Shown here in pieces: positions 10,983 through 29,349 of a DNA stretch of 42,190 nucleotides (position 1 is the first letter of the stretch; each line of letters begins with the position of its first letter). The notes beneath the pieces were generated by a model. That model did not search any database and had not been told where the DNA came from. It saw only the letters and a list, made by a program, of their open reading frames with translations. Source of the stretch: a virus; IMG/VR virus record IMGVR_UViG_3300021378_000054, positions 1-42,190 of that record; one strand, given 5' to 3'. The translations under genes were made by a program, and so were the position numbers.

Positions 10983-10995
10983 AACAATTAGTTTT
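10981..10995. terminator. Weak AT-rich hairpin between convergent genes
   Basis: AAAAC (10981-10985), loop AATTA, GTTTT (10991-10995). The stem can extend imperfectly with the flanking CT and TAG. It covers both stop codons of the convergent genes and is followed by T-rich sequence. With only five A/T-rich pairs, a terminator role is tentative. Confidence 0.3.
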
Positions 10996-11611
10996 GTAGT
11001 TTTATATTTCCACTTAAACTTATACGATAATCATTAGAAGTATAAAACGGATTTACATAGTGTAACATTTCTGAAGGAAACATACATATTTTTCCTTCAA
11101 AGTTTTTGTCTACATGTATATTGTAAGTTTTTATTTTACCTAACCCATCTGTATATAAAAAATTAAACATACTTGTCTTACTTCCTTGATTTACATTGCC
11201 AAAGTAGTCTAATTCTTCTTGTAAATCATAAGGTATCTTTAACCATATTACAAAACTAAAAACACCACTGTGAGAATGAGGAGGATTAAATTCATGCTTC
11301 TTTTGAAAATTAACCCAATGGTTGTGTAATCCTAACGGAGCATCGTTGAATAATACATTGTAATCTTTAAGGTAATTTGGATATTTTTCATTATAATCTG
11401 TAATAAGATTGTTTAAGAAAATATCTAAATCTGTGTCATAGTCTAAAGCATATTCGTGTTTAATATGTCCTACTAGATTGTCATTGAAACTATTTCCTTT
11501 TGTAAAATCTTGTTGTAAGTTATCAGTAATAGTATCGAGTTTAGTTTTTAGTTGTGTAGGTAGATCACAAAGAATAACTCCTACTTCGCCTACTTCTATA
11601 AAATTATTCAT
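10988..11611 (-). CDS. 2OG-Fe(II) oxygenase-like protein, HxH type
   Basis: 207 residues, last gene of the minus-strand operon. The start at 11611 is chosen because this ATG overlaps the preceding stop (ATGAATAA); the frame is open further upstream, but that would overlap the upstream gene more. The core resembles the phage family of putative 2OG-Fe(II) oxygenases (TIGR02466/PF13759-like): FNPPHSHSGVFSFVIWL supplies H112 and H114, then MFPSEMLHYVNPF supplies H184, and R196 in DYRISLSG is the likely 2OG carboxylate anchor. Such enzymes use 2OG and O2 to hydroxylate a substrate at Fe(II). The substrate is unknown; the neighbouring Gly/Pro-rich fibre is a candidate only by position. Confidence 0.65.
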   Translation of the reverse strand: MNNFIEVGEVGVILCDLPTQLKTKLDTITDNLQQDFTKGNSFNDNLVGHIKHEYALDYDTDLDIFLNNLITDYNEKYPNYLKDYNVLFNDAPLGLHNHWVNFQKKHEFNPPHSHSGVFSFVIWLKIPYDLQEELDYFGNVNQGSKTSMFNFLYTDGLGKIKTYNIHVDKNFEGKICMFPSEMLHYVNPFYTSNDYRISLSGNIKLQN

Positions 11612-12260
11612 GAGTTGGATTTTCTTTTGGACCTGGAAATAATTTCCATTGTTTATCACTATCCCATTTGCGAGTTTCAGGACCCATACCAAGCATAGGT
11701 CTAGTATCATATTTTAAAACTGCTTTAGGACCTTTTGCTCTTACAAAAAAGAAAAAAGCATTTATTTGTTCTGTTCCCTCGTAAGGATCTCTCCAATGAA
11801 AAAGTTCATTACCTTTATATAATACTGCATCCCCGGGTTCTTGTACAATATATTTTCTTTCGCCTTGCAACGTTTCCATTCCTAAGTGCCACGGGTGATT
11901 AGGATCTGTTTTAACACATAATGATACACTAAATTCACTACTACTTCGGTCAATATGATATTTCATTTCTGCACCTGTATAGTATATTCTTGCATAGGTA
12001 TATGTAGGAAAAACAGGTTCTCCTATTTCTTTTTCAACAATATCCTTTATTATTGTATCACTTAAACTTTCAAATGCTAAAGCACTGTACCAACTAAAAC
12101 TATTTTCAACCATCTCATCTTGATAGGGAAATTTATGTCCATCTCTAACAGCCGCAGTGGCAATGTCTTTTGCCATTTCAAATTCACGAGCCGCTACTCT
12201 GCAAACTTCTTTAGGAACTGCACTTTTAATTTCTTTATATAAATCCTTTTTAAAACTCAT
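11604..12260 (-). CDS. 2OG-Fe(II) oxygenase, HxD type (prolyl-4-hydroxylase-like)
   Basis: 218 residues. FPTYTYARIYYTGAEMKYHI precedes the metal motif H102-I-D104. The distal ligand is H155 in KGNELFHWRDPY, with R157 nearby. The same layout (PTYxYxRLY ... HxDRxxxE ... LYKGxExxHWR) is found in the products at 14854 and 32551, so the three are paralogues. Expected reaction: 2OG- and O2-dependent hydroxylation. It starts 1 base after the upstream oxygenase gene and overlaps the next by 8 bases, so it is part of one operon. Substrate unknown. Confidence 0.75.
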   Translation of the reverse strand: MSFKKDLYKEIKSAVPKEVCRVAAREFEMAKDIATAAVRDGHKFPYQDEMVENSFSWYSALAFESLSDTIIKDIVEKEIGEPVFPTYTYARIYYTGAEMKYHIDRSSSEFSVSLCVKTDPNHPWHLGMETLQGERKYIVQEPGDAVLYKGNELFHWRDPYEGTEQINAFFFFVRAKGPKAVLKYDTRPMLGMGPETRKWDSDKQWKLFPGPKENPTHE

Positions 12261-12261
12261 T

Positions 12262-12858
12262 TTAACTTCTTTCTTGTATAAAGTTGTAAGATATTGTTAT
12301 TCTATCATTGCTGTTATTATGACGTTCTACACTATGACTAGTATCACTAGTAAACATTAATAGTTTACCTGCATCAACATTGTAGTTAATAGTACCAAAT
12401 GTATTATTAGAAAATTCTTCATATTCTATATGAAACATCTCATTTTTAGGACTTTTAAAATATACCTTTGCACTATCTTTATCTCCTGCTAACATATAAA
12501 TTGCACTTATAGTTAGACCAGGGTGTACATGAAACTCTTGGTAATCATTTTTATCGTATATATTAAACCAACTACAATGTGGGATTAATGTATTTTTAAT
12601 TTTAAGCATTTGAGCATAATTATTAACTTGTTCTGATACCCATTTATTAAGTGTAGAAAATTTTTCATCTTCAAAACAATCATGTTTTCCGTCACTAGTA
12701 TTATATGTATCTTTAGACAACCAGTCTTGTCCTCCCGGCTGTACAGACAGTTTTAAATTTTTACAATGCTCAATTAAATCTTTTTCTATTTTATCATGAT
12801 GAGGATTAAAAACATATCCTATAGTAGTAGGGAACCAATGTTCTAATTGAATACTCAT
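12262..12858 (-). CDS. 2OG-Fe(II) oxygenase, TIGR02466-like (HxH type)
   Basis: 198 residues. It opens with LEHWFPTTIGYVF, matching the start pattern of this family (xxxxFPTxIxxxx). The core EFHVHPGLTISAIYML gives H110 and H112; SDTSHSVERH gives H175; R186 in NDRITISYNF is the likely 2OG-binding arginine. The family normally shows HxHxxxxxSGVYY, so this copy is slightly divergent (TISAIYM). The gene begins with a 4-base ATGA overlap with the carbamoyltransferase stop, so the two are translated together. Confidence 0.75.
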   Translation of the reverse strand: MSIQLEHWFPTTIGYVFNPHHDKIEKDLIEHCKNLKLSVQPGGQDWLSKDTYNTSDGKHDCFEDEKFSTLNKWVSEQVNNYAQMLKIKNTLIPHCSWFNIYDKNDYQEFHVHPGLTISAIYMLAGDKDSAKVYFKSPKNEMFHIEYEEFSNNTFGTINYNVDAGKLLMFTSDTSHSVERHNNSNDRITISYNFIQERS

Positions 12859-14516
12859 TTTATTAATACTCCTAATTCGGGAACATACAAATAATCAATT
12901 TTGCTTTTTTGTAGAGTATCTATAGCATCTTGTATTGTTTCAACTATACAATCGCCTGCAAGATTAAAACTTGTATTAAACAATATAGGAACCTGTGTTA
13001 TATTTTCAAATTCTTTTATTAGTTTATAAAAATTTGGATTTTGTTTTTGTGTGAGTGTTTGTACTCTACATGTATTATCTATATGATTAATTGCAGGTAT
13101 ACTATCTATCTTATTTTTTACTGTATCTACAGCGTACATCATATATGGAGATTCATCTAAGCCTGCCATATCAAACCAATCATTTACTTTTTCCAAAAGT
13201 ATAGTTCCTGCAAACGGCCTAAACCATTCTCTGTTTTTAACAGTGTTTACAATATCTTTTCCTTTTGGATTGCGTGGATCAAAAAGTATTGATCTATTAC
13301 CTAATGCTCTAGGCCCACCTTCGCTTCTACCTTGATATATAGCAACAATATTTCCATCAGCAATTAGATTTGCGACTGTTTTAGCATCTGTATTGCTGTA
13401 TGTAGTAGTTTGTATGTCATCAAGTGTTAACGTGTACTGTAGGCCCGTGTATAGCGTTTTAAGAGGCCTTTTAGTAGTGTCTTTAGTACTTGTATGGTGC
13501 AAGTATTTGGCCGCACCAAAACTTGTTCCAGCATCACTACTAATTGGTTCTATGTATAAATTAATATTTTTTGGTAAGCGTTTTTTGTAATAATAATTGG
13601 CAACACAATTTAAAAAATAACCACCTGATAAACAAACATTATTGTGTCCAGTTTTTTCTACCAATCTAATTATATCATTCAGTACTTTGTGTTGTGTTGC
13701 TTCTTGTAAAGCACGAGCAAAATTTGCTTGTATTTGAAAATCATCTGTATCTAAATATGGATAATTTTTTACGTTTAATGTAACTTCTTTTGTAGTTGAT
13801 AATTCATTATTAAACAATTCTGGATTAATTTTATTATCTACATATATAGGAGGAACATTAGGATCAGGCTTACCGTAACTTGCCATTCCCATTACTTTTC
13901 CAGCATCTAATTCGTGAAATCCAAAATGTTTTGCTGTTTTTTGGAAGGCTAATCCTTCACTTACGGTGTTTGTATAAGTTACATTGTCGCTGGTATAGTT
14001 ACAGTCAAACGGAACATAAACTTCTCTTTCAACTTGATAAAACATGTTAGGATAGGAACCTTCAAATACACTTGATATTTCTCTACCATAACTTCCTGAT
14101 TTAAAATTGCTGTCTGTAATAGGATATTCACTGCCCATGCCATCTTTTACTATACATAGTGCAGTGTCAAATCCACTGTTGTAAAAAGCATGTGCGGCAT
14201 GTAAGAAATGATGATCCATTCCATAATCACATACATCAAATCCTTTGTCTAAAAAACTTTTATTTAGACCTTGTACATATTCGCTATACACATCACTTGA
14301 AGTAAAATCTTCAAAAGTTTTTAGATTATTACATCCTGCAATAGCAAGACTGTCAATATCTTTTGTATATGTTTTTAGTTTGTTTAATGTTAAAAAAGGA
14401 TATGAATCGTATTTTATGTTTGATAGTCTTTCATTTTCCAGATGGAATTTAAGTTCCCCATTTTCTAAATAGGTCACTGCACTATTATGGATACGATTAA
14501 TACCTACTACTTTCAT
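12855..14516 (-). CDS. Carbamoyltransferase, NodU/CmcH/TobZ family
   Basis: 553 residues, full length for the family. The N-terminal part is ASKHA-like: GINRIHNSA with H10, then the signature HHFLHA (H102, H103, H106) and KDG with D125, which are the expected metal and carbamoyl-adenylate residues. The C-terminal YrdC-like half shows LSGGYFLNCVANYYY (about 295-310), EPISSDAGTSFGAA (about 325) and SEGGPRALGNRSILFDPR (about 397-412), which are hallmark motifs. Family members transfer a carbamoyl group from carbamoyl phosphate, via carbamoyl-AMP, to a hydroxyl group of a sugar or antibiotic. It lies between oxygenases in an ATGA-coupled operon, so an oxygenase could create the hydroxyl that it carbamoylates; that link is inference. 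Confidence 0.9.
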   Translation of the reverse strand: MKVVGINRIHNSAVTYLENGELKFHLENERLSNIKYDSYPFLTLNKLKTYTKDIDSLAIAGCNNLKTFEDFTSSDVYSEYVQGLNKSFLDKGFDVCDYGMDHHFLHAAHAFYNSGFDTALCIVKDGMGSEYPITDSNFKSGSYGREISSVFEGSYPNMFYQVEREVYVPFDCNYTSDNVTYTNTVSEGLAFQKTAKHFGFHELDAGKVMGMASYGKPDPNVPPIYVDNKINPELFNNELSTTKEVTLNVKNYPYLDTDDFQIQANFARALQEATQHKVLNDIIRLVEKTGHNNVCLSGGYFLNCVANYYYKKRLPKNINLYIEPISSDAGTSFGAAKYLHHTSTKDTTKRPLKTLYTGLQYTLTLDDIQTTTYSNTDAKTVANLIADGNIVAIYQGRSEGGPRALGNRSILFDPRNPKGKDIVNTVKNREWFRPFAGTILLEKVNDWFDMAGLDESPYMMYAVDTVKNKIDSIPAINHIDNTCRVQTLTQKQNPNFYKLIKEFENITQVPILFNTSFNLAGDCIVETIQDAIDTLQKSKIDYLYVPELGVLIK

Positions 14517-14857
14517 TCAACTTTAAAATCTTTAATTACACCAAATAACTGATCTAATTTTCTTATGTCATCTGTTATACTACAAACAGGATATAGAACC
14601 CCATTATCTTCTACATGTCCTTGTATGTTGACATATTGTCCACCTTCTTTACATGCTTTTACAAATAAACTTTCTTCAGGGTTTATTTTAGGCATAGGAT
14701 CTAATGCAAAGTTTTTCTTAACTAGTTCGTTTACAATTAAAGGATCACCGTGTTGTTGCATAAGACGTAATATTTCAACTGCCGCCTTTTTATGTTCATC
14801 ATTTAAATTATCGTAATTAAACATTTCTTCACTTAGGTTGTTTAAATCAAAACTCAT
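14513..14857 (-). CDS. Unknown 114-residue protein in the oxygenase/carbamoyltransferase operon
   Basis: I do not recognise the family. The start at 14857 is preferred over an in-frame ATG at 14914 because it overlaps the previous stop by ATGA and has a strong ribosome binding site. The first 60 residues look helical and acidic (SEEMFNYDNLNDEHKKAAVE). The second half looks like beta strands, with ACKEGGQYVNIQGHVEDNGV and two cysteines (ACKEG, PVCSI). There is no membrane segment. Being tied by 4-base overlaps to an oxygenase upstream and the carbamoyltransferase downstream, it may be an accessory or carrier subunit; this is inference. Confidence 0.7.
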   Translation of the reverse strand: MSFDLNNLSEEMFNYDNLNDEHKKAAVEILRLMQQHGDPLIVNELVKKNFALDPMPKINPEESLFVKACKEGGQYVNIQGHVEDNGVLYPVCSITDDIRKLDQLFGVIKDFKVE

Positions 14858-15522
14858 TTTTCTCTCCTTGTTTGGAACCCTCTTGGTATACCTAAAATAG
14901 GGCGGCCATCCCATTTTTTAGCAAAAGGACCATCTTCGTCGTTGTAATGTAAGAATACCTGTGCATGATTGCGTCCTTTAAAAGGTTCACGCCAGTGATC
15001 TATCTCATGACCTCTGTATATAATCATATCACCTGGATAAAGTTTTATAGGTAGTTCTTCACCGTTTTTATTTTGTACCCACATAGGCCAATTATAATCT
15101 GGATATGTATTTTGATCTACATTTTCAACATCATAACCAATACAAAGTGTTGTACTAATTTCACAACTAGGTCGATCTTTGTGTCTTACTAGTTCATCGT
15201 TTTGTGTATACAATCTATAATAACTATAGGTAGGAATAGTATTAGAGCCTGTATAATTTTGCATGATATTAGATGCTTCATTTAAAATTGTATCAAACAT
15301 TGGATCTCCATACCTACTGTATGCCCCGGGTGCTTGTGGATCAATCCAATTACCGTCCCAATGCTCGTTGTATAAATCTATATCATTTTGATATTTGTAA
15401 TCTGAACGTTGTACATTTATCTTTATATATTCATAAAGTATGTGTGCAAATTGCTTATCTATAAAGTTGTTGATTACAACATAACCATTATCTTTAAAAA
15501 AATTTTGAATTTCGTCGCTCAT
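14854..15522 (-). CDS. 2OG-Fe(II) oxygenase, HxD type (prolyl-4-hydroxylase-like)
   Basis: 222 residues. The N-terminus FFKDNGYVVINNFIDKQFAH is a typical opening of phytanoyl/prolyl-hydroxylase-like oxygenases. IPTYSYYRLYTQNDELVRH leads to H114-K-D116, and the distal region YRGHEIDHWREPF supplies H176. It is a paralogue of the products at 11604 and 32551. It overlaps the upstream gene by 4 bases (ATGA) and the downstream unknown by 4 bases. Substrate unknown. Confidence 0.75.
   Translation of the reverse strand: MSDEIQNFFKDNGYVVINNFIDKQFAHILYEYIKINVQRSDYKYQNDIDLYNEHWDGNWIDPQAPGAYSRYGDPMFDTILNEASNIMQNYTGSNTIPTYSYYRLYTQNDELVRHKDRPSCEISTTLCIGYDVENVDQNTYPDYNWPMWVQNKNGEELPIKLYPGDMIIYRGHEIDHWREPFKGRNHAQVFLHYNDEDGPFAKKWDGRPILGIPRGFQTRREK
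14862..14869 (-). promoter_or_regulatory. Strong ribosome binding site that fixes a start
   Basis: On the minus strand the sequence reads AAGGAGAG, four bases before the ATG at 14857. This supports the shorter 114-residue form of the downstream protein and suggests extra ribosome loading mid-operon, inside the end of the preceding oxygenase gene. Confidence 0.6.
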
Positions 15523-16274
15523 CTAAATGGCCTTCCTAAACTCCATAGTACTAAACTGTACCTTGTACCTTTTGTTACAGGAGTAACACAATGGGGTAAA
15601 AAACTAGGAAATACAATTATACTTCCCCGTGGGCGTATTTCCTCGCATGTATGAAAACGATTGCCGCTGTCTGTATGTTCACCAAAATCGAACTTTAAAT
15701 CTCCACCTTCATAACTTTCAGGTTCAGCAATATTGATTGTTACACTTAACTTTCTTACTTTTCCTACCATGTCTGGATTAAGTGTGTGTCCTGTAGGAAT
15801 TCTGCCTTCATCTTCGTGTGTTATACCTGGAATAAATCTTTTAAATTTTCCTAAATGGTCGCTGTTTCCGTCTCTGTGCCACCCATAAAATCCTGCAGGA
15901 TTATATTTTGTAAATTGAAAAGATTCGTGAAAATCAATATCAAAGTTCCAGCCTGCATTGTAATTTGCTAGTTCTACATATGGAGTAATTTCATCATAAA
16001 CCCATTCATCATCTAACCAAGATACTTCACTATCTCTTACGTAAGTAGATTCTGGCTGAATACCTTCTTCAATTAACTCACTACGGGTTTTATCTGTTTG
16101 GGGATTTGCTTCTGGTTTGTTACTTTTTTCTCCACCTCCCCACGTCCAACCTTCCGCAGAACCTTCATTCTGTTTGATTTCTTCTATTTTGTTTTTGCCT
16201 AACGCAAGTACACTATCGCAAAACTCGTTTGATAGTGCAGACGTATAGAACCAATAATTGTGTTTTAACAGCAT
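15519..16274 (-). CDS. 2OG-Fe(II) oxygenase, prolyl-4-hydroxylase-type (PF13640-like), first gene of minus operon
   Basis: 251 residues. The core is the clearest of the nine oxygenases: FTKYNPAGFYGWHRDGNSD gives H133 and D135, a middle strand SVTINIAEPESYEGGDLKF follows, and VFPSFLPHCVTPVTKGTRY gives H228 and R238 (2OG-binding). This is the standard P4H/PHD-type double-stranded beta-helix layout. A roughly 35-residue stretch near 38-75 is rich in charged residues and Gly/Trp (AEGWTWGGGEKSNK). It heads the seven-gene minus operon and is divergent from a fibre gene 78 bases away. Substrate unknown; peptidyl proline or lysine in fibres is one possibility. Confidence 0.8.
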   Translation of the reverse strand: MLLKHNYWFYTSALSNEFCDSVLALGKNKIEEIKQNEGSAEGWTWGGGEKSNKPEANPQTDKTRSELIEEGIQPESTYVRDSEVSWLDDEWVYDEITPYVELANYNAGWNFDIDFHESFQFTKYNPAGFYGWHRDGNSDHLGKFKRFIPGITHEDEGRIPTGHTLNPDMVGKVRKLSVTINIAEPESYEGGDLKFDFGEHTDSGNRFHTCEEIRPRGSIIVFPSFLPHCVTPVTKGTRYSLVLWSLGRPFR

Positions 16275-16352: not shown

Positions 16353-19271
16353 ATGGCAAGAACTAGAGTATCAAGTGGACAAATATCAGGGAGTTTAGTA
16401 TTTGACGGTAGCACGGGTATAACAGTACCGCGTGGCAATACAGCAAATAGAAATCCATCACCAAACCAAGGTGAAATTCGATATAACACAGATTTAAATG
16501 TAATGGAAATTTACAATGGATCCGCATGGGGAAGCATGGGACCATTTCCGTTTGCTTTTACAGAATACTTTATAGGCGACGGAACAACATACGAATTTAT
16601 ACTAACAAACAATGTAGCAAACGCTAATGACATTATTGTAACAAACAATGGTGTTCAAATGAGAGCAAATAAAGATTTTAGAATATTTGACTCTAACATA
16701 TTAAGTTTTACCGAAGAAGATAGTTCACAAAGTCCACCAATTGATGGTGCTGAAATTAATGTTAGAGGTTTTTCACCTATTACAAGTGCAAGTGTTCCAG
16801 CAGGAAGTGTTACACTAAATGAACTAAATTTTTCAGATGGTAGTGCAGGACAATTTTTAACTACTAATGGTAGTGGAGTTTTAAGTTTTGGCGATATTAC
16901 TTTTCCTTCTAACTACAATGTAGGCGGTGATGTAACAGGTACCACTGATAATGTACAACTTAAAGCAAACACTGTTGGAGTTAATGAACTACAAGTTAGT
17001 GATGGTACTATGGGGCAAGTACTTGCTACAGACGGATCAGGAAATTTATCATTTATTACAGTGTCTAGTGGCGGTGGCGGTGCAGGAACAGTAGCAAACT
17101 TTTTTGATCTAAGTGGTCAAATTGCTTATTCACAAATACCTAACAGTTTAATTACTATAGAAAAGGTAGATGTTGTTGACGGTTCGTCAGGAGATTTATT
17201 AAGCACAGATGGCGCAGGAAACTTTGCATTTGTATCACCTAACAATATTGCAGACACAGACGGTTTATCTGAAGGTACAAATAATTTATATTTTACAAAC
17301 ACAAGGGCAGATGCTAGAGCAGATTTAAGAGTTGCGGCCGCGGTATTAAGTGATCTTAATAATGTAGATAGTACAGCACCAGCAACTGACCAAGCACTGA
17401 TTTGGGATGGTTCTGCAGGTAAATGGAAACCAGGAACAGTTGCTAGTTCACAAAATGTATTTGCAACATTTACAGCCGATACAGGAACTACAACTGCAAA
17501 CGCAATAACTGATACATTTACAATTACAGGCGGAGTAGGTATTACTACAAGTATTGTAGGAGATACTGTAACTATTACAAACACAGGCGGATCAGGTGGT
17601 TCACAAAACTTGTTTGAAACTATTGCTGTGTCAGGACAAAATAGTGTAGTTGCTGATGTTGTAAATGACACATTAACTTTAGCAGGCGGCAGTGGACTTA
17701 CAATTACAACAAACAATCTTACAGATACAATTACATTTGCTGTAGATAATGAAAATAAATTTACAAGTGTTGTAAGTGATAACGGAACAGTAACTCCGAC
17801 AACAACTGACGATGCTATTACTATTGCTGGCGGTACAGGAATTGGAACTATTGTTGCAGGAAGTACACTAACAATAAACAACGATGCACCTAACTGGTTA
17901 AACATTGCCAGTGACAGTGGTACAGCAACAGCAAATACAGTAAGCGATACACTTACAGTTACAGGTGGTACAGGAATTACAACAGCAGTTGTTGGCGACA
18001 CGTTAACTATTAATTCAAGCACAAGTGCAAATACATTTAATACTATCAGTGTAAATGGACAGGGAGATGTTGTTGCAGATTCAACAACAGATACTTTAAC
18101 ACTTGTAGCAGGATCAAATATTACACTTACTACTGATCCAACTACTGATGAAATTACAATTAATGCAAGTGCAGGAGCAGGAGGCTCAGGAACAGTAACA
18201 AGTGGTCTAGCAGGTAGAATTGCATATTACTCAGCAACAGGAACAACACTAGTAAACACATCAAGCGGTTTATCGTGGAATAACGGTACAAACACTCTAA
18301 GTGTACAAAATGTTGCTATCACTGGTACAACAGGCTCTATTACAAGCACAGGCACCATTACAGCGGCAGTTATCGATGCACCTAGTATACAAAGTAGCGG
18401 TGCAGGAACTCCTACATTACAATCTGGAAATGATTTGTTATTTGATGTTGTAGGTGAAATTAATTTGCAAGATACTAAAATTGTAAGATTATTAGATCCA
18501 ACAAATGCACAAGATGCGGCTACTAAAAAATACGTTGACGAAAACACACTTACAAGTTTTGGTATTGGTGCAGACGATTCTACAATTAGAAATGTAGGCC
18601 CTGGCGAAAGTATAAAAATTATAGGTGGTACAAACGTAACTACAGCAAGTGATGCTGAAGGTAACATTACAATTAATTCATCAGGTAGTAGTTCTAATTC
18701 TTTTGAAACTATAGTGGTTGCAGGACAAAATGATGTTGTAGCAGAATCTTCAACAGATACATTAACACTTGTTGCTGGAACAGATATTTCAATTACTACT
18801 AATAACAGTAGTGATACTATTACAATTAATAGTACTGCTAGTGGCGGTGCAAGTAATTTAACACAACTAACTGATGTTAATCTAAGTTCAGTTGAAACAG
18901 GACAAATGTTAGTTTATAACGGAACTAACTGGGTGAATGCAAACGGTCCAAGTTATCGTTACGAATTTAATGCTACTGATGCAAGTAACTATCAAGTAGG
19001 CGGCCCGGGATTAACAGGAACACCAAATGATCCAGATTTATATTTTAGAAAAGGCAATACATATTATCTTGATAACTCAGGTACAGGTGGCGCACATCCG
19101 TTGTTAATAAAAACAACTGCAGGAACAGGTACAGGAAATCAATACACAACTGGTGTTTCAGGTAGTGCAAACGGTGTAATAATTTTTGAAGTACCAATGA
19201 ATGCTCCATCAACATTGTATTATCAATGTCAATTCCATGCCGGCATGGTTGGCACGATTAACATTTCATAA
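16353..19271 (+). CDS. Repeat-rich tail fibre with C-terminal cupredoxin-like domain
   Basis: 972 residues. The N-terminus has an RNPSPNQGEIRYNTDLNVME unit followed by YNGSAW, shared with the other fibres, then a GDGTTYEFILTNN module. The middle (about 370-860) contains about six repeats of some 45 residues with the pattern F.TI.V.GQ..VVADS..DTLTL..G..ITTT...DTITI, predicted all-beta. At about 720-735 is QDAATKKYVDE, a common fibre junction motif. Residues about 868-972 look like a cupredoxin fold: YFRKGNTYYLDNS, AHPLLIK (H915), VPMNAPSTLYYQ and CQFHAGM (C959, H962, M965). The C-x2-H-x2-M spacing equals that of amicyanin-type blue copper sites. A late box and ribosome binding site precede it. 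Ten bases separate it from the protease gene. Confidence 0.8.
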   Translation: MARTRVSSGQISGSLVFDGSTGITVPRGNTANRNPSPNQGEIRYNTDLNVMEIYNGSAWGSMGPFPFAFTEYFIGDGTTYEFILTNNVANANDIIVTNNGVQMRANKDFRIFDSNILSFTEEDSSQSPPIDGAEINVRGFSPITSASVPAGSVTLNELNFSDGSAGQFLTTNGSGVLSFGDITFPSNYNVGGDVTGTTDNVQLKANTVGVNELQVSDGTMGQVLATDGSGNLSFITVSSGGGGAGTVANFFDLSGQIAYSQIPNSLITIEKVDVVDGSSGDLLSTDGAGNFAFVSPNNIADTDGLSEGTNNLYFTNTRADARADLRVAAAVLSDLNNVDSTAPATDQALIWDGSAGKWKPGTVASSQNVFATFTADTGTTTANAITDTFTITGGVGITTSIVGDTVTITNTGGSGGSQNLFETIAVSGQNSVVADVVNDTLTLAGGSGLTITTNNLTDTITFAVDNENKFTSVVSDNGTVTPTTTDDAITIAGGTGIGTIVAGSTLTINNDAPNWLNIASDSGTATANTVSDTLTVTGGTGITTAVVGDTLTINSSTSANTFNTISVNGQGDVVADSTTDTLTLVAGSNITLTTDPTTDEITINASAGAGGSGTVTSGLAGRIAYYSATGTTLVNTSSGLSWNNGTNTLSVQNVAITGTTGSITSTGTITAAVIDAPSIQSSGAGTPTLQSGNDLLFDVVGEINLQDTKIVRLLDPTNAQDAATKKYVDENTLTSFGIGADDSTIRNVGPGESIKIIGGTNVTTASDAEGNITINSSGSSSNSFETIVVAGQNDVVAESSTDTLTLVAGTDISITTNNSSDTITINSTASGGASNLTQLTDVNLSSVETGQMLVYNGTNWVNANGPSYRYEFNATDASNYQVGGPGLTGTPNDPDLYFRKGNTYYLDNSGTGGAHPLLIKTTAGTGTGNQYTTGVSGSANGVIIFEVPMNAPSTLYYQCQFHAGMVGTINIS

Positions 19272-19280
19272 GGTGTATAA

Positions 19281-21767
19281 ATGAGTGAAGAAAATAAAGC
19301 AGTAGTTACATTGCACAAAGGTGTTAATGCTGACGAATTTTTAAATAATATGACAACTACTTTTGGTAGTGACTCTATTCCTGCACGTTCAGTTACAATA
19401 CACAACGAAAAAATAGATTCTATTAGTAACTTTGATTTTGTTCTTACAAAAGCAGAAGCAGAAACATTAAAGAATGACCCAAGAGTACGAGATGTTCGTT
19501 GGGGTACAAAAACAGAAAATGGCATTATGCCTATGCACAATGTTACTGAGCCTGTAAGAAATCACAACAGAGATAACACAGTTGATAATACTGATTATCC
19601 ATGGGCATTTGCTGAATGTACTTCACGCACAAGTAGATATGCTGGAGGAACAACATCAGACTATACTCATGCTTATAATTTAGATGGTACAGGTGTTGAT
19701 GTTATAATACAAGATAGTGGAATAGAAGTTGGTCATCCTGAATGGCTTGCTAGAGACGGTGTAACTACAAGATTAAAACAAATTGATTGGCCAGTCGAAA
19801 GTGGATTGAGTGGTGTTTACACCCAAGGTGCTCAACACTATACTGATCAATATGGTCATGGTACTCATTGTGCAAGTACAACAGCAGGAAAACTATACGG
19901 CTGGGCAAACAACGCTGACATTTATGCTATTAAGATTTTTGATACAGATTTATATGGTGTAAGTGCAAGTTTTAATTTAATGAGAGCCTGGCATAATTTA
20001 AAGAAAAATGATAGACCAACTATAGTTAATATGAGTTGGGGATACTTTGGAACTTATACAAATATTGTTGGCGGTAATTGGAGAGGTACAACTTGGACAG
20101 GCACTTCTGCTGAAGCACAATACGGAATGATACAAAGAAATTTAAATGGTGGACTTTATACACACCCTATAAGAGTAACATCAGTTGATAGTGATATAGA
20201 AGATTGTATCGAAGCAGGAATGATTCTAGTATCTGCGGCAGGAAATGCGGCTCATAAAATGGATTTGTCAACTGGATTAGATTATAATAATTACTGGACA
20301 AGTTCAACGCTAGGTAATAGATATTATCATCGAGGCGGAACACCTCAAGCAAGTTCTAATGTAATATGTACAGGAGCAATTGACTATAATTATACTAACG
20401 TATCACCAGATCCAGAATACAACAATGGCGCTTTTAGTAATGTTACAGGCAATGGTAGTGATTTTTTCAAACGTGAAGTTACAGTTAATGGCGTAAGAAT
20501 TATGGCGGCAGGTGCAGTTGGAGGACAAACAGCAGTTCCTGATTCGTTTGTTGAAAAAGTAGCACGTATGTTTGAACTTTTTACAGATCCAACAGGACCT
20601 GGAATAAACGGATCAGCACAAAGAGGATTAATACAAAACCTAAGTGGTGACGCAGGAACATATCATGCAGGGGTACCAACAATACAAAGAGTAGCAAGAG
20701 GTGCTGGCTCAGACTATAGCACAAACTTTTTAACAGACGCTGGCATTGTATTTTGGGATCTAACAGACTTGTTTGATAATACTGTTCAGAACGATATGGT
20801 GTGGTATTTGAATTCAACCGGCGATGGATACGGTGATGGTGACATTGATGCACAAGAAGTTATTGAACACGTATTCCATACATTACACATGCATGGTTTA
20901 GATGCACAAACATTAAAAATGTATCCTTTTATAAGTTCAGACTGGGCAACTGGTCCATTATATGCGGCAATGGAAGAAGCATACGATGCAGGTAAATGGG
21001 ATCCGTCAGGATATAACAATCCATCAAATGATTGGAAGACCGATGGAGATGCATTTGAAGTAGCGGCAAAAGAATATTTGTTTCTACTAAACTTTGCTAT
21101 GTTTGAGTATACAGAATTATGGGAAAATGGAAGTCTTAGTCCCGAATGGACAGACGATATGCGTACACAGTCTGGTATTCAAACAAATAATCCTCTAGGT
21201 TATGCATTACACAATACATATATTGCTCCTGTTATTAGTAGGCCTACGTTGTCAACAATTAGAAGTATATTCCAAGACGGAAATACACCAGCACAAGATG
21301 ATCCAACTCAAGCAGGACGATCAGGTTATTTTGTTACACAGTTAGTAAAAGAACGATCTACAGACTTTAGCGAAAAAGGACCAAGAGTTGATATTTTTGC
21401 TCCTGGTTATGCAATTCAAGCGGCAATTCCAAGTGGAGCAGATTTAGATGCTAATAGTACAACACACCCTGATAATGCAAGTTACAAAATTAGAAAGTTA
21501 CAAGGAACATCAATGGCATCACCACAAGTTTGTGGTATTTTAACTCAATTATTACAAGCAAGACCCCATTATACACAAGCAGATTGTCTTGCGTGGCTAC
21601 AAGATCAAGCAGTAGATAACAGACTAAATGACCCAACTGTTGGTACTCCTAGTACAGATTATCAAAATTTTAGAGCATTAAATGGTGCTAATAACAAATA
21701 TTTACAAACACCCTTTGTAAGTGGTTTAAAGTATAATTTTACAGGCGGAATTAGTTTTTCCAGATAA
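19281..21767 (+). CDS. Subtilisin-family (S8) serine protease with large insertion
   Basis: 828 residues. Residues 1-85 resemble an inhibitor-I9-type propeptide (VVTLHKGVNADEF ... VRDVRWG). The catalytic triad is complete: D145 (VDVIIQDSGIE), H193 (YGHGTHCAS) and S744 (LQGTSMASPQVCG), with oxyanion N322 (VSAAGNAAH). N322 and S744 are about 420 residues apart, against roughly 65 in subtilisin, so a domain of about 350 residues is inserted. In it, D515-E526 (DGYGDGDIDAQE) matches an EF-hand/dockerin-type calcium loop, followed by a His-rich helix (H530, H533, H536, H538). No signal peptide is evident. Lying between fibre genes, it may be a virion protease that degrades host surface protein or matures fibres; that role is inferred. 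Confidence 0.85.
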   Translation: MSEENKAVVTLHKGVNADEFLNNMTTTFGSDSIPARSVTIHNEKIDSISNFDFVLTKAEAETLKNDPRVRDVRWGTKTENGIMPMHNVTEPVRNHNRDNTVDNTDYPWAFAECTSRTSRYAGGTTSDYTHAYNLDGTGVDVIIQDSGIEVGHPEWLARDGVTTRLKQIDWPVESGLSGVYTQGAQHYTDQYGHGTHCASTTAGKLYGWANNADIYAIKIFDTDLYGVSASFNLMRAWHNLKKNDRPTIVNMSWGYFGTYTNIVGGNWRGTTWTGTSAEAQYGMIQRNLNGGLYTHPIRVTSVDSDIEDCIEAGMILVSAAGNAAHKMDLSTGLDYNNYWTSSTLGNRYYHRGGTPQASSNVICTGAIDYNYTNVSPDPEYNNGAFSNVTGNGSDFFKREVTVNGVRIMAAGAVGGQTAVPDSFVEKVARMFELFTDPTGPGINGSAQRGLIQNLSGDAGTYHAGVPTIQRVARGAGSDYSTNFLTDAGIVFWDLTDLFDNTVQNDMVWYLNSTGDGYGDGDIDAQEVIEHVFHTLHMHGLDAQTLKMYPFISSDWATGPLYAAMEEAYDAGKWDPSGYNNPSNDWKTDGDAFEVAAKEYLFLLNFAMFEYTELWENGSLSPEWTDDMRTQSGIQTNNPLGYALHNTYIAPVISRPTLSTIRSIFQDGNTPAQDDPTQAGRSGYFVTQLVKERSTDFSEKGPRVDIFAPGYAIQAAIPSGADLDANSTTHPDNASYKIRKLQGTSMASPQVCGILTQLLQARPHYTQADCLAWLQDQAVDNRLNDPTVGTPSTDYQNFRALNGANNKYLQTPFVSGLKYNFTGGISFSR

Positions 21768-22203: not shown

Positions 22204-25200
22204 ATGGCAGATTTTAATCTAGGTAGAATTAAGTTTAAATGGAGAGGCGCTTGGGTAACAGGCTACTCATACATTAAAGACGATGTAGTACTACATGGTG
22301 GTATATCATATGTAGTAAAAGAAAATCATACTTCTTCAAATGTCGAAGGCGATCTTTCAAGTGCTAAACTTGAAAAAATGGCAGGCGGTACTGAGTGGAA
22401 AGGTGATTGGGTTACAGCAACAGTTTACAAACGTGGAGATATTGTTAAGTACAAATCAAACGTTTATATTGTAACTGAAGGACATACTTCAGGAGCAAAC
22501 TTTGAAACTTCTACTAGCACAGATGCAAACTTATATATTTCAGGTATTGAATATGATGGCGAATATAATAACGCTTCAGAATACAATATTGGTAACCTAA
22601 TAACTTATGGAAATTCACTTTACTTAAACATACAACATACAACTGGTAATAATAAACCAAGTGGTACCCCATCTACAACCACTTATACTATTACTGTTAA
22701 CGTTGACACACTAGGCGGTACTGGTGGAAACAGATATTTTGTAGACGGAACACAAGCACCAGACTTAGCGTTTACTGAAGGTAACACTTATATCTTTAAT
22801 CAAGATAGTGGTACTAACAACGGACACCCAATACTATTTTCAAGAACAGGAAATGGTACTCATGCTACACCAGCAGGTGCAGTATACGAAGAAGGTGTTG
22901 AATATTATTTAGACGGACAATTACAGTTAAGTAAAACACAATACCTAGCAGGATTTGATGCCGCAACAACAAGACAGGTAAGAATTACAGTACCACAAAG
23001 TTCACCAAATACTTTATACTGGTATTGTCATAATCATCCTGACATGACTGAACAAGCAACAGATGGTGATTGGTCAACAATCACTGTTAGTGAAAGTTCA
23101 ACGTATTGGGCATTAGTTGCCGCAGGTTCAGGCTGGAGAGGCGCTTATAATTCTTCTGAAAGTTATTACTTACAAGACATTGTTACATACGGTGGTTATC
23201 TTTACATTGCTAAAAATGACTCAACAGGCGTAGCACCAACAGAAACAAACAACTGGGACATCTTTGCAACTTCTTATAATGAAAGAGGTACATGGGATAA
23301 TACTACAGTTTACTCCGCTGGTGACGTTATCAAGTATGGAGCAAAAAGATATATTGTTAAACAAGGACAAACTCCACCAGTAGGTACAACACCAACAACT
23401 ACACAATACTATGATGTGTTTGTTGAAGCCTTTGAATACAAAGGAATTTGGCAAGATTCTACAGAATACTATCCAGGAGATATTGTATTAGAAGGTGGTA
23501 GATTATGGGAAGCACAAGTAGTACATACTTCTACAGTTTCTAATAACCCAAGTGATCCAGCAAGTGGTGGCGGTATATGGTCAACATTCCTTCCAGGTAT
23601 GAAATGGAATGGAACATATAATGCAACAACAACATACTATACAGATGATGTAGTAGAATATAATTTAAGTTCTTACATTGCACTAAGAGAAACATTAGGT
23701 GATACACCTAGCAGTTCTCCATCAGATTGGAGTCTAGTTGCACAAGGCGATGCAAGTACTATTACTACAACACGTGGTGACATAGTTGTTAGAGGATCAG
23801 TTGGAAACATTCCACTATCAATTGGACCAGCAGGTTCATACTTATACAGTGATGGAACTGATGTAAAATGGGGTGCTCAAACTCCACAACAAGATTATTT
23901 TGTATCACCACAAGGTGATGACACAAACGATGGTAGAACACCAGCAACAGCATGGAAAACAATTAGACATGCGGCTGACACTGTGTTTAACAGAGGCCAA
24001 AGTATTATTGCTATTGCGTCTGGATCATATAAAGAACAGTGTCCAATTAAAGTTGGTAAAGGTATTGTTGTAGAAGGTGGCGGCCTAGGTGCTGTTGACG
24101 TACAACCGGATACTACAAATGATAATGGTTTTGGTGTTGGTATATCCGATGACGGATCCACTCCGAATGCCAACTCAGATGTATTCCAAATGAACAATGG
24201 TGCAAGATTACGTAACATTGTATTTAGAAACTTTAGTACTGGATCTGTACAAGCATGTTTAGATCCTGGAGTAGGTCCAAATGATACAAGTGTTTGGATT
24301 ACTTCACAATCACCTTACGTACAAAACTGTACTAACTTTACACCAGGTGGTACTGGAATGAAAATTGACGGTGCTCTACACAATGGTGGTTATAAGAGTA
24401 TGGTTGCAAATGACTGGACACAAATTAACTCCGATGGTATTGGTGTACACGCACTAAACGATGGACGTTCAGAACTTGTTTCTGTGTTTACATACTATTG
24501 TGATGTAGGTTACCTAGCAGAAAGCGGTGGTAAAATTCGTTCAGTTAACGGTTCAAGTGCATATGGTGAATTTGCTGTTAGAGCAGATGGTTTTTCACAA
24601 GCAGAAACACCACTAACAGGACACATTAGACTAGCAACACAAGAACTAAACGCTATTCAAGAAGTACAACATGATGTAACATTTAACAATTCATTCAAAG
24701 ATTCAACAGGTGATATTTTTGCAGTTGGACACACAGCACCAGCGTACTCAGGTACAAACTATGCAACTTTCCAACAAGCATCATCTTACATGTATTTTGC
24801 AAGATGGACAGGTAACACATTAGATTGGCAACAAACACTAGGTGCACCAACAAGTGATAACGTTGGTTTCACAGGAGAACTTAATTGTGTATGTGAAGAT
24901 ACTGCAGGTGGTTACTATGCGGCAGGTAGAATTTACCAAAACAGTGTGTACAAAGGTTTTATTGTTAAGTTTACAAGACTAGGTGAAATACAATGGCAGA
25001 AAGTTATTTCTGCTACAGATAATATTACAGGTATGGTACATGATGAAAGTCAAGCACTATACATAGCAGGTAATCACTCAACAGCAGGTGCAACACTTGC
25101 TAAATTATCAAATGGTGGTGTAATACAATGGAGTGAAACTATCAACTATGATGGTAGTACAACTAACTCAATTGAAGTTGTAAGTCTAGCATTTGGTAGA

Positions 25201-28200
25201 CCAAGTTTATCAAGTACTGTAACGTACACAACAGAAGGTGCGGCAGACTTAGAAGGAAAAATATTTTTAGGATTTAACGATACTACTGCAAACGAAACAG
25301 GTATTGTAGCATATGATTCAAACGGAAACTACATTAAGAGTTTCCACTTAGGCGACTATAGTATGTTTGATATGAAGTTTGACAACACAGGTGAAGACGG
25401 TTTATACTTTGCAGTTGGCGGACAGTATGTAAGAAGTGTTACTTCGTATGCTTACCCACAAACACAATTAACATATTCAGGATCAACACCAACTACAGTT
25501 GCTAACGTAAACATTGGCGGTGGTCAAGGTGGATCTGTTAGAATTGCTTTTGATACAGGCGGAGCAACACTAGATCAAGACGCTAATATTACAGTAGGCT
25601 ATAGTTTATTCAGTAGTGGTACTGGAGTTGCAACAGTTGTTGCTAACCAAGGTGTTACAGGTAACCAGCACATTATTGATGTTAACATTACAAGTGGAAC
25701 ATTTGTAAATGCTGAAACTGTAGAGATGAGATCACCACCAACAGTTAACACATATGATAACCCAATTCTTGCAAGAATTAGATTAGATGGCGAAGTTGCA
25801 TGGCAAAAACAATATGCTTCATTAAAAACAGGCCGTTATAAAGCAATTACTCCACTAGGTGATGAACTTTATGCAGTTGGATCTATTGAAACAGTTGCAG
25901 GATCTAATGTATACAACGGTTTGATATCAAGTTTTGATTCAGCAGGTATACATGCATTTAGTAGAGAATTATCAGATAACGATTCAGGTGTAGAACTAAA
26001 CAGTGTTTCCATTGATGGTGTTAACCTTATTATGGCAGGTATGACAAATGGTAACAACGCAGGTTACTTTAACTTTACAAGAACAGGTGGCGGTTTTGGT
26101 ACACTAGATGATTCAAGTGGAGCATACAATTATATTACAGTTACACCTACTATTGAAGATGCAACTATTTTAGATTACAAATTCCATGACATGGACTTTA
26201 GTGATGCAACACTTGCACTTACAGATACAAACGGTGTTGTTGATAACTCACCAGAAAAAGTATTATCGATCCAAGCAACTAGACAAGGTTTTGCTAGTAT
26301 TGGTACAGGTATTAGTTTTGCTGTAGACGGATTAGAAAGACCAATTAAAGATGGTTCGGTAGCATTTATTGATGGAGATAGTGAAACTTACTTTATTATT
26401 TCTACAAGCGGTTACCAACAACCTACATTTACAACTGGAAATGATCCAAATGCTTATGCGTTGATTAATGCTAACAAATCATTCTTACAAGAAGAAGTTA
26501 TTCAATATATTGATGCAACATATCCGTCATTGGTATATGACAAAACATTATGTAGACGTGATACAGGATTAATTATTGATGCAGTATTATTTGACTTAGA
26601 TACAGCATCAAATGGTAAATCAGTTGACGCTGGTTATTCATATTATTCAAGTCCATCTGCAAGATATGCAATTACAACACAAAAAGCAGAAACAGTTGCG
26701 GCAAACACATACTTAAAAACTATTATTGCTAACGTTGTCAACGAAACAGTACCAGCAACAGTACGTGGTACAGTTCCGCAGGTTACAGATGCAGGACTTG
26801 TTAGAGAAGCAGGCTCAGATACTAGAGCACAAACACTTGTACAAGTAGTAATTGACATTATTAACATTGGTAAAGGTTCGGCTCCAGCAAAAATAAACTA
26901 CGGTACATCAAACATTGCTGTTGATCCAAAAGTTCCAAGTAACAAAACACCAGATGAAGGTGCAAGAGTAACAATACGTGAAGCATTTAGTCAGGTACGT
27001 ATGACAGGACATGACTTCTTAGACATTGGTACAGGTGGATTTGCTGATACTAACTATCCAGTTATTATTAAAGCAGACTACGGACAAACACCAAACCAAG
27101 AAGCAGAAACTATTTCGCAAAACGGTGGTAGAGTGTTCTACGTAACCACTGACCAAGATGGTAACTTTAGAGTTGGTGACTACTTTAAGGTTGAACAGGC
27201 CACTGGTAGAGCAACACTATCGTCAGAAGAATTTGACTTAACAGGTTTGAACGAACTACAACTTGGTAGTATTACAGCAGGTAAAACTGGTGCTACTATT
27301 AACGAATTTAGTACAGATCCAAACTTAACAGATATTTCAGATAACAGTGTTCCAACAGAAGGTGCTGTTTACAAGTTTGTTAAATCAGGATTTATGGGTA
27401 CAGACGCAATGGTACTTGCACGTGGTGCAACTAACCAACGTCCAACAGAAACAATTGAAGGTATGTTACGTTACAACAGTACCTTAAAAACAATTGAATT
27501 CTATAACGGTACAGAATGGGCAACATCAGGCGGTGCTGGTCTAAGTATTGTTAGTATTACACCAAACATATTTGATCCAGATGTAGATACTACAATTGAA
27601 ATCTTAGGTGATAAATTTAGTGATCCAACAGGTGTTAAATTTGGTACTATTACAGTTCCACTGAGTTCAGTTACATATGTAAGTGAACAAGAAATTACAG
27701 TACAAACAGGCGCAGGCGTGTTTAGTGGACTAGCGGCAGGTAGATACAATGTAGAACTTACAACTACAAACGGATCTAAATCAACATTACCAAGAGGTAT
27801 TGAAATTGATAATGCTCCTAATGCTAATACACCAGCAGGTAGTTTAGGTAGTTTCCAAGAAACTACAACAGTTAACATTACAAGTGTAACAGCAACAGAT
27901 CCAGATGGTGATACGATTACTTACAGTATTATACTTGATGCAGGAAGTTTATTTGCAGACCAAGGTGGTCCGCTAACAATGAACAGTGCAACTGGTGCAA
28001 TTACAGGTACTTTACCTAGTGTTCCTAGTACAACAACTAAAACATTTACAGTTAGAATGGCTTCACAAGGTACAAACGGTACAGTAAACACTGATGTAAT
28101 TTACTCATTAGAGATTTTACAGAATACTTCACCAACATTTACATCACCAACAGCAGGTACAACACCAGGCGGTGATGATGGTACAACAAGTGATAGTACA

Positions 28201-29349
28201 TACGGTACAACAAGTATCCAACTTACAGCAAATGACCCAGATGCAGGACAAACACTTACTTACAGTGTACAAGCAGATGCTGAAGGTTTATTCAGTAACG
28301 GTCTAAGTTTGAATACAGGAACAGGTTTAATTAGTGGTACAATTAACCATAGTTGGTTGAACAGAGGATACGACAGAACAGGATCAGTAACTATTAGAGT
28401 TACAGACGATGCGGCGTTCCCAGCAAGTGATGATGTAACATTTAATATCAAAGGTAGAACTACTTGGAGATATAGAACTGTTATTAACAGAGGTTACATG
28501 GCAGGTGGATATAGGAGTTCGGTTCCATGGTCAAACGTTAACAGAACAAGTCACTCAAACGATACTTCAAATAACTTAGGTAACTTGATGGATCAACCAG
28601 GTACATATATGGACGGTGGACATAGTGATGTAACAGGATGGTCATGGGGTAACGATCCAAGTTATCCTACTAACTCAAACAGAGGTTGGGCGTTTAACAT
28701 GACAACCGATTCACGTAAGGGTTACAACAATAGTTCGTTGAACATGAGTACTGGACGTAATGACCACGGTGTTTCAAACTACGATACACAGTTTAGTGTA
28801 ATTACAGGTGGCGGTAGTGCTAACACAGACATTATGAATCACTCTACAGAAACTATGCGTACAAACGTTAACAACTCAGGTATAAGTGCAGACTATGTTG
28901 GAGCGGCATGGAGTCAAAGTGCTGGTTATCACTGGAATGGTGGTACACACAGAAGGATTGCATTTAGTACAGAGTCTTGGAGTGGACTGTTTAGTACACA
29001 GGGTACACACTCAAAAGGATTAACAAGTAAGTACGGTTACTACTACATTGGCCCACCAAACAACTCACGTAACTTAGAGAAAGTTAACTCTAGTAATGAT
29101 AGTTCACAAGGAACAATTGGTAACTTCCCGAATGGTCAGAACACACAAGGTGAGCATAACATGCAAATGGGTCAGGATGCAGGATACTCAATTGGTATGT
29201 GGCAGGGTTCAAATGGTCAGGCTAACGACAGTTGGAAACTTACATATTCAAATGATAGTATGAGTAACGGATCAAGTGGACAAAGTGCATTACAACCAAA
29301 AGGCCAGCCTGGATGTTCATCAGGGGCGTGCTTTAGTACAGGGATTTAA
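22204..29349 (+). CDS. Giant tail fibre with carbohydrate-binding-like, cupredoxin-like, beta-helix, propeller, IPT and Ig modules
   Basis: 2,381 residues, the largest gene here. It has seven CBM5/12-like modules (W.G.W...Y..GD.V.YG...Y) within residues 1-530, interrupted after the third by a cupredoxin-like domain (about 158-298; H208 in NNGHPILFS; C275, H278, M281 in YWYCHNHPDM). Then follow a beta-helix (about 564-800, FVSPQGDDTNDGRT), a propeller-like region (about 800-1340), a helical insertion (about 1405-1580, with NKSFLQEEVIQYIDATYPSL and CRRDTGLIIDAV), the shared RMTGHDFLDIGTGGF / GRVFYVTTDQDGNFRVGDYF module, an RPTETIEGMLRYNSTL unit, an IPT/TIG domain, two cadherin-like Ig domains, and a tip of about 290 residues rich in Asn, Ser, Gly and Trp beginning RGYMAGGYRSS, perhaps kelch-like. 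It is a paralogue of the protein at 4867, with extra modules. Probably host-recognition fibre. Confidence 0.8.
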   Translation: MADFNLGRIKFKWRGAWVTGYSYIKDDVVLHGGISYVVKENHTSSNVEGDLSSAKLEKMAGGTEWKGDWVTATVYKRGDIVKYKSNVYIVTEGHTSGANFETSTSTDANLYISGIEYDGEYNNASEYNIGNLITYGNSLYLNIQHTTGNNKPSGTPSTTTYTITVNVDTLGGTGGNRYFVDGTQAPDLAFTEGNTYIFNQDSGTNNGHPILFSRTGNGTHATPAGAVYEEGVEYYLDGQLQLSKTQYLAGFDAATTRQVRITVPQSSPNTLYWYCHNHPDMTEQATDGDWSTITVSESSTYWALVAAGSGWRGAYNSSESYYLQDIVTYGGYLYIAKNDSTGVAPTETNNWDIFATSYNERGTWDNTTVYSAGDVIKYGAKRYIVKQGQTPPVGTTPTTTQYYDVFVEAFEYKGIWQDSTEYYPGDIVLEGGRLWEAQVVHTSTVSNNPSDPASGGGIWSTFLPGMKWNGTYNATTTYYTDDVVEYNLSSYIALRETLGDTPSSSPSDWSLVAQGDASTITTTRGDIVVRGSVGNIPLSIGPAGSYLYSDGTDVKWGAQTPQQDYFVSPQGDDTNDGRTPATAWKTIRHAADTVFNRGQSIIAIASGSYKEQCPIKVGKGIVVEGGGLGAVDVQPDTTNDNGFGVGISDDGSTPNANSDVFQMNNGARLRNIVFRNFSTGSVQACLDPGVGPNDTSVWITSQSPYVQNCTNFTPGGTGMKIDGALHNGGYKSMVANDWTQINSDGIGVHALNDGRSELVSVFTYYCDVGYLAESGGKIRSVNGSSAYGEFAVRADGFSQAETPLTGHIRLATQELNAIQEVQHDVTFNNSFKDSTGDIFAVGHTAPAYSGTNYATFQQASSYMYFARWTGNTLDWQQTLGAPTSDNVGFTGELNCVCEDTAGGYYAAGRIYQNSVYKGFIVKFTRLGEIQWQKVISATDNITGMVHDESQALYIAGNHSTAGATLAKLSNGGVIQWSETINYDGSTTNSIEVVSLAFGRPSLSSTVTYTTEGAADLEGKIFLGFNDTTANETGIVAYDSNGNYIKSFHLGDYSMFDMKFDNTGEDGLYFAVGGQYVRSVTSYAYPQTQLTYSGSTPTTVANVNIGGGQGGSVRIAFDTGGATLDQDANITVGYSLFSSGTGVATVVANQGVTGNQHIIDVNITSGTFVNAETVEMRSPPTVNTYDNPILARIRLDGEVAWQKQYASLKTGRYKAITPLGDELYAVGSIETVAGSNVYNGLISSFDSAGIHAFSRELSDNDSGVELNSVSIDGVNLIMAGMTNGNNAGYFNFTRTGGGFGTLDDSSGAYNYITVTPTIEDATILDYKFHDMDFSDATLALTDTNGVVDNSPEKVLSIQATRQGFASIGTGISFAVDGLERPIKDGSVAFIDGDSETYFIISTSGYQQPTFTTGNDPNAYALINANKSFLQEEVIQYIDATYPSLVYDKTLCRRDTGLIIDAVLFDLDTASNGKSVDAGYSYYSSPSARYAITTQKAETVAANTYLKTIIANVVNETVPATVRGTVPQVTDAGLVREAGSDTRAQTLVQVVIDIINIGKGSAPAKINYGTSNIAVDPKVPSNKTPDEGARVTIREAFSQVRMTGHDFLDIGTGGFADTNYPVIIKADYGQTPNQEAETISQNGGRVFYVTTDQDGNFRVGDYFKVEQATGRATLSSEEFDLTGLNELQLGSITAGKTGATINEFSTDPNLTDISDNSVPTEGAVYKFVKSGFMGTDAMVLARGATNQRPTETIEGMLRYNSTLKTIEFYNGTEWATSGGAGLSIVSITPNIFDPDVDTTIEILGDKFSDPTGVKFGTITVPLSSVTYVSEQEITVQTGAGVFSGLAAGRYNVELTTTNGSKSTLPRGIEIDNAPNANTPAGSLGSFQETTTVNITSVTATDPDGDTITYSIILDAGSLFADQGGPLTMNSATGAITGTLPSVPSTTTKTFTVRMASQGTNGTVNTDVIYSLEILQNTSPTFTSPTAGTTPGGDDGTTSDSTYGTTSIQLTANDPDAGQTLTYSVQADAEGLFSNGLSLNTGTGLISGTINHSWLNRGYDRTGSVTIRVTDDAAFPASDDVTFNIKGRTTWRYRTVINRGYMAGGYRSSVPWSNVNRTSHSNDTSNNLGNLMDQPGTYMDGGHSDVTGWSWGNDPSYPTNSNRGWAFNMTTDSRKGYNNSSLNMSTGRNDHGVSNYDTQFSVITGGGSANTDIMNHSTETMRTNVNNSGISADYVGAAWSQSAGYHWNGGTHRRIAFSTESWSGLFSTQGTHSKGLTSKYGYYYIGPPNNSRNLEKVNSSNDSSQGTIGNFPNGQNTQGEHNMQMGQDAGYSIGMWQGSNGQANDSWKLTYSNDSMSNGSSGQSALQPKGQPGCSSGACFSTGI
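24281..24334 (+). repeat. Near-identical repeat shared with 6521-6574 (copy 2)
   Basis: Second copy of the 54-base stretch in the beta-helix region of the giant fibres. One difference from copy 1. The two are 17,760 bases apart in direct orientation, so homologous recombination between them could delete or duplicate the intervening operon. Confidence 0.75.

Follow-up and report, generated by a model that had tools for sequence, protein, structure and literature searches.

The C-terminal domain of a 972-residue tail protein of a marine phage, encoded in the window (the entire 42,190-nucleotide stretch of viral DNA analyzed here, IMG/VR record IMGVR_UViG_3300021378_000054), truly belongs to the cupredoxin superfamily, and its four candidate copper ligands evolve as a unit under selection, being kept or lost all together. 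The domain resembles the blue-copper electron carriers in fold, ancestry and conservation; the fold is already known, and it is the setting in phage tail proteins that is new with respect to the open-access literature searched.

A cupredoxin domain at the C-terminus of a tail protein

The open reading frame 16353..19271 (+), with an ATG start, encodes the 972-residue protein, and translation of 18954..19268 (+) yields the 105 residues 868-972 that constitute the domain. The sequence-only reading had placed here a cupredoxin-like domain with a full set of type-1 copper ligands, and H915 (codon 19095..19097, +), C959, H962 and M965 are indeed found exactly at the claimed positions, the latter three in the loop C959-x2-H962-x2-M965 (CQFHAGM; 19227..19247, +); all four are invariant in the 79 aligned homologs. 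C959 is the sole cysteine of the whole protein, and H915 and H962 are its sole histidines, so that all three fall on ligand positions. Because the protein has one cysteine, the possibility that C959 is engaged in an intrachain disulfide is rejected; an inter-chain disulfide via this residue may form.

By its match to the PHROG_677 profile ('baseplate wedge tail fiber connector', gp9-type; E=1.1e-83, best stretch 765-971), the protein is assigned to the fiber/gp9-family virion proteins. Its N-terminus, however, differs from that of cyanophage gp9: the protein contains long fiber repeats, and the N-terminal attachment segment of the T4 gp9/gp10 type is absent, with no PDB match. Thus, of the earlier statement that the domain sits at the end of a tail fiber, the location at the C-terminus of a tail protein stands, whereas the fiber tip is just one of the places where the domain occurs, since elsewhere it is also found near the N-terminus or inside fibers; given the absence of the T4-like segment, a position at a tip is no more than a possibility.

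Structure prediction, proposed in that reading as a check, gave a confident AlphaFold2 model of residues 868-972 (pLDDT 97.3, pTM 0.89, with the 79-sequence alignment), which has nine strands and, as judged from this model and from Foldseek, is a Greek-key beta-sandwich of the cupredoxin type. The best Foldseek matches in the PDB are cupredoxins (E 1.5e-4, prob 1.00), and the matches listed, namely rusticyanin, AcoP, plastocyanin, pseudoazurin, amicyanin, Cu nitrite reductase and laccases, all belong either to the copper cupredoxins or to oxidases that contain cupredoxin domains, with prob of 0.93-1.00 and TM scores of about 0.4-0.6; the moderate TM values toward solved cupredoxins, about 0.5-0.6, imply that the topology of the domain differs from theirs in detail. 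The family profile A2, compared to PDB sequences, matches Cu nitrite reductase (8.7e-6) and plastocyanin (8e-4), and all four ligands of plastocyanin 2plt are in register with it. Furthermore, the Pfam Copper-bind family (PF00127) matches 24 of the 79 homologs (best 7e-8), albeit not the window copy, and the NCBIfam model that matches the largest number of homologs is amicyanin (20 of 79), in agreement with the earlier remark that the C-x2-H-x2-M spacing is that of amicyanin, the loop being of the amicyanin length. The homology to type-1 copper proteins, demonstrated by the Foldseek, profile-versus-PDB and Pfam/NCBIfam matches, runs through relatives: the window copy alone, in single-sequence searches, found neither a copper family in Pfam nor a relative in the PDB, and the matches came from profiles only. 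Taken together, the fold, the profile homology and the register of the ligands, with one histidine placed on an inner strand and the cysteine, second histidine and methionine on the C-terminal loop, support the assignment of a cupredoxin domain with a complete type-1 set. In type-1 copper sites, the ligands adopt a trigonal geometry, with a Cu-S(Cys) distance of about 2.1-2.2 A, and the proteins display bands near 450 and 600 nm and one-electron redox chemistry; we consider it very probable that the candidate site of the phage domain binds copper.

The sequence-only reading described one such domain, which is real, but the window contains two, the second of which had been overlooked. It is part of a 2381-residue fiber protein with CBM5/12 modules (22204..29349, +; PHROG_9851) and occupies 22681..23094 (+), with a full H/C/H/M set (NGHPILF ... 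YCHNHPDM). The AlphaFold2 model of this domain is of lower confidence (pLDDT 84.9) and its best fold match in the PDB is rusticyanin (prob 0.98, E 0.011), with no PDB fold matching below E 0.001, so that its predicted fold is less certain than that of the first domain. Between the two cupredoxin-bearing genes lies a gene for an S8 subtilisin-like protease (19281..21767, +). Fusions of such proteases with the cupredoxin domain were encountered in 11 ORFs of other phages, a count that includes some re-fetched copies of one gene, and, as loci L102, L110, L111, L137 and L143 illustrate, protease and domain are either joined in one protein or encoded side by side, the latter as in the window; this suggests that the protease and the cupredoxin domain are functionally linked. 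Elsewhere in the window, segments 10988-16274 and 33132-35879 contain genes for a ferrochelatase-like protein, several 2OG-Fe(II) oxygenases, a Nol-like carbamoyltransferase and a tryptophan halogenase, the oxygenase-like ORFs in 14854-16274 being assigned by eye only.

Joint retention and loss of the four ligands

The C-x2-H-x2-M motif by itself is unimpressive and near chance: six-frame translation of the window contains it four times, twice in frames without a gene, and the other in-gene occurrence, at 23026 (+), belongs to the second cupredoxin-like domain. What surpasses chance is the conservation. In the alignment of the 79 homologs, which come from viral and bacterial contigs, mean column identity is 32%, and the only invariant columns are H48, Y90, C92, H95 and M98 (domain numbering). 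The loop-length variants C-x2-H-x3-M and C-x4-H-x2-M likewise retain all ligands.

The sampling was extended by an additional, related domain type that was gathered with a ligand-free pattern, GNTYIFN, as well as by copies from phage records found with tblastn and by neighboring copies. Among the 221 non-redundant copies, four ligands are kept in 174, three in 3, two in 2, one in 28 and none in 14, compared to 106.5, 85.6, 25.4, 3.3 and 0.2, respectively, expected if the ligands were lost independently; these copies share ancestry and, accordingly, are not independent events. As one of the two homolog search patterns contained C-H-M, the test was repeated on the 118 copies that had been collected without selection for the ligands, with the same outcome: four ligands in 84 copies, three in 3, two in 1, one in 19 and none in 11, the independence expectation being 42, 50, 22 and, for one or none, 4. 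On a FastTree tree built without the ligand columns, a rough one given the short alignment, there are at least 12 changes between the intact and the lost state. In the three-ligand copies, the axial methionine alone is replaced, either by glutamine (2) or by leucine (1), both of which occur at this position in natural type-1 sites, such as those of stellacyanin and laccases. The second histidine is retained in no copy that lacks the cysteine or the first histidine. Such all-or-none retention is predicted by a metal site, not by packing.

In several copies (L083, at ORF residues about 1071-1185, L180, L183, L184 and L187), both histidines and the methionine have been replaced together by tyrosine, with the cysteine kept; these Y/C/Y/Y copies may reflect either packing or a site of another kind, formed by Cys and Tyr.

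Distribution among phages and relation to known systems

The domain is far from unique to the window protein: it matches 350 phage records, mostly those of Synechococcus and Prochlorococcus cyanomyoviruses, and is carried by most of the related ocean cyanobacterial phages examined, with an identity of about 50% conserved across phages with different hosts. Each of 20 cyanomyovirus genomes, chosen for having matches, contains 1-5 of these. Its typical locations are the C-terminal end of baseplate connectors of the gp9 type, and fibers, spikes and subtilisin-like proteases. In the isolates, it forms the C-terminus of gp9, the N-terminus of which is homologous to T4 gp10/gp9 (as seen in Syn9 gp9), and the ligand cysteine lies 13-14 residues from the C-terminus in 9 of 10 gp9-type proteins and is the sole cysteine in 8 of 10. 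The published virion proteomics of S-CREM2 includes no named gp9 connector. The domain is present in P-SSM4, whereas the genomes of T4, KVP40, HTVC008M and P-SSP7 yielded no domain match. S-PM2 shows a weak, partial match only and has no canonical copy; therefore, not every cyanomyovirus depends on the canonical domain.

With amicyanin, plastocyanin, pseudoazurin and rusticyanin (PF00127), the phage domain shares the fold, the H ... C-x2-H-x2-M order, the ligand register and the amicyanin loop length. It differs from them in having a conserved GTGTGNQY-type segment, the window copy being below the Pfam thresholds, and in its context: the cellular PF00127 cupredoxins are soluble periplasmic or lumenal carriers, whereas the phage domain is part of a virion tail protein. 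Another Pfam family, PF25489 (At5g54830-like), matches 22 of the 79 homologs (best 2.3e-10), although, among these, relatives only, as its profile does not match the window domain. The matching proteins from bacterial contigs share the domain with the H/C/H/M set and, unlike the phage copy, are cellular or of unknown context. Three of them (L127, L128 and L129), two with type IX secretion tails, are candidates for the cellular origin of the phage domain.

Among phage structural proteins, the closest are the 'baseplate wedge tail fiber connector' of cyanophages (PHROG_677, T4-GC 398), whose profile matches the C-terminal part of the 972-residue protein, and T4 gp9/gp10, to which the N-terminus of cyanophage gp9 is related; T4 and KVP40 are devoid of the cupredoxin domain, and the 972-residue protein has a different N-terminus and the fiber repeats. 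A metal held by histidines in a phage tail fiber has a precedent in the iron-binding HxH sites of the T4 gp37 tips and of marine phage fibers (PMC11705849), but there octahedral His6 iron is bound along the trimer axis, in contrast to the His2CysMet type-1 set within one domain that is proposed here. In Synechococcus phage RN05-S (L139, 2446-4788), a protein with a cupredoxin copy lacking the H, C and H ligands (F/A/V/M) contains six HxH pairs near its C-terminus, as in the iron-binding fibers.

A true plastocyanin gene (petE), of the same superfamily, is present in 16 of the 20 domain-bearing genomes, as a small separate gene located elsewhere in the genome, outside the structural proteins. 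In S-SCSM2R, a protein annotated as PetE (XQU50115.1; L027, 2797-3303) is a virion-type domain adjoining a tail protease, with the true petE at record positions 79-321; the PetE call is likely a false metabolic-gene annotation.

The sequence-only reading knew of no described phage fiber with a proven type-1 copper site, and this agrees with our literature search, which covered open-access publications and found no description of a cupredoxin in a phage virion, nor of copper bound by the tail of any phage.

Possible roles of the proposed copper site

On balance, we favor, with a modest preponderance of probability, the explanation that this is a type-1 copper cupredoxin domain employed as a module of phage tail proteins (gp9-type connectors of the baseplate, fibers, spikes and virion proteases). 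Its role would be that of a copper-loaded docking or cap element. Copper would be acquired inside the host, or else taken up from what lysis sets free, and would tie the C-terminal loop to the facing strand with the histidine, thereby fixing a flat face around the exposed histidine. Cellular cupredoxins dock their partners on precisely such a face. The fixed face of the phage domain could then bind a neighboring part of the tail or a conserved partner on the host surface. Since many copies have lost all ligands and retained the domain, the fold does not require the ligands; therefore, copper would add a function beyond merely permitting folding, and the persistence of ligand-free copies points to a use of the fold in metal-free form as well. 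The identity level across phages with different hosts is more in keeping with a conserved interface than with a receptor-binding tip that diversifies. The C-terminal position in the connectors and the modular reuse of the domain also render a docking or cap role the most likely one, and, judging from location and conservation, there is a somewhat less than even chance that the domain is a rigid, copper-locked cap or docking head of its protein.

The same ligands could, alternatively, form a redox switch or sensor that is reduced or oxidized at the host surface, altering docking or triggering the tail and so tying adsorption to the redox or light state of a photosynthetic host. Nearly all type-1 sites in nature are one-electron redox centers, which speaks for this possibility, as does the fact that adsorption is light-dependent in P-HM2 and not in P-SSP7 (PMC7112961, where a report of light-dependent adsorption by Jia et al. 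2010 is also cited). P-HM1, a member of the P-HM2 species, carries the domain (4 matches), and P-SSP7 does not. The phage of the 2010 report, however, is said to have been S-PM2, which lacks a canonical copy, so that the link to light is suggestive and weakened by this phage. Moreover, two or three phages do not make a correlation, and no redox partner is known. We regard the switch as fairly unlikely, and quite unlikely the more specific notion of cyanophage tails with working blue-copper arrays in which host-surface electron flow, or the redox state of copper, gates docking or triggering.

If the four residues served for packing, or bound another metal (Zn, Ni) or none, the domain would be an adhesion module of cupredoxin fold, and the 42 of 221 copies with at most one ligand do indicate that the fold is useful metal-free; this is improbable, though, because packing does not predict that four residues lying far apart in the sequence are lost all or none, nor that glutamine and leucine at the axial position are the sole single replacements. 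Carriage of copper, by which the virion would approach a host copper receptor as a Trojan horse or scavenge metal released from host plastocyanin, could be imagined by analogy with the iron counterpart (Ferrojan horse, HxH tail fibers) proposed for marine phage fibers (PMC11705849). It would be in line with the 1-5 copies per genome, which may mean many sites per virion, and with the plastocyanin encoded by the same 16 of 20 phages. Yet type-1 sites hold copper very tightly and are poor at handing it over. Nor do we know of a picocyanobacterial copper receptor used by a phage, and we deem this role distinctly improbable. That the motif is a chance one, or the domain a captured plastocyanin gene in a metabolic role, has next to no probability: C-x2-H-x2-M does arise by chance in the window and one phage copy is annotated as PetE, but the former is ruled out by conservation, fold and homology, and the latter by the separate true petE in the same genomes and the location of the domain within virion-type genes.

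The comparison of sequences, thus, suggests that cyanophage tails may bind copper. Should the redox switch be real, a metal site of the electron-transfer type would be known in a virus particle for the first time. Provided that copper does occupy the site, the distinction between virion cupredoxins and photosynthetic petE would be easier to draw in surveys of phage metabolic genes, the dependence of infection on redox state or copper would become testable, and there would be relevance for the copper speciation of seawater. The cyanomyoviruses, which are among the most abundant viruses of the ocean, would then count as metalloprotein particles whose baseplates and fibers carry type-1 copper.
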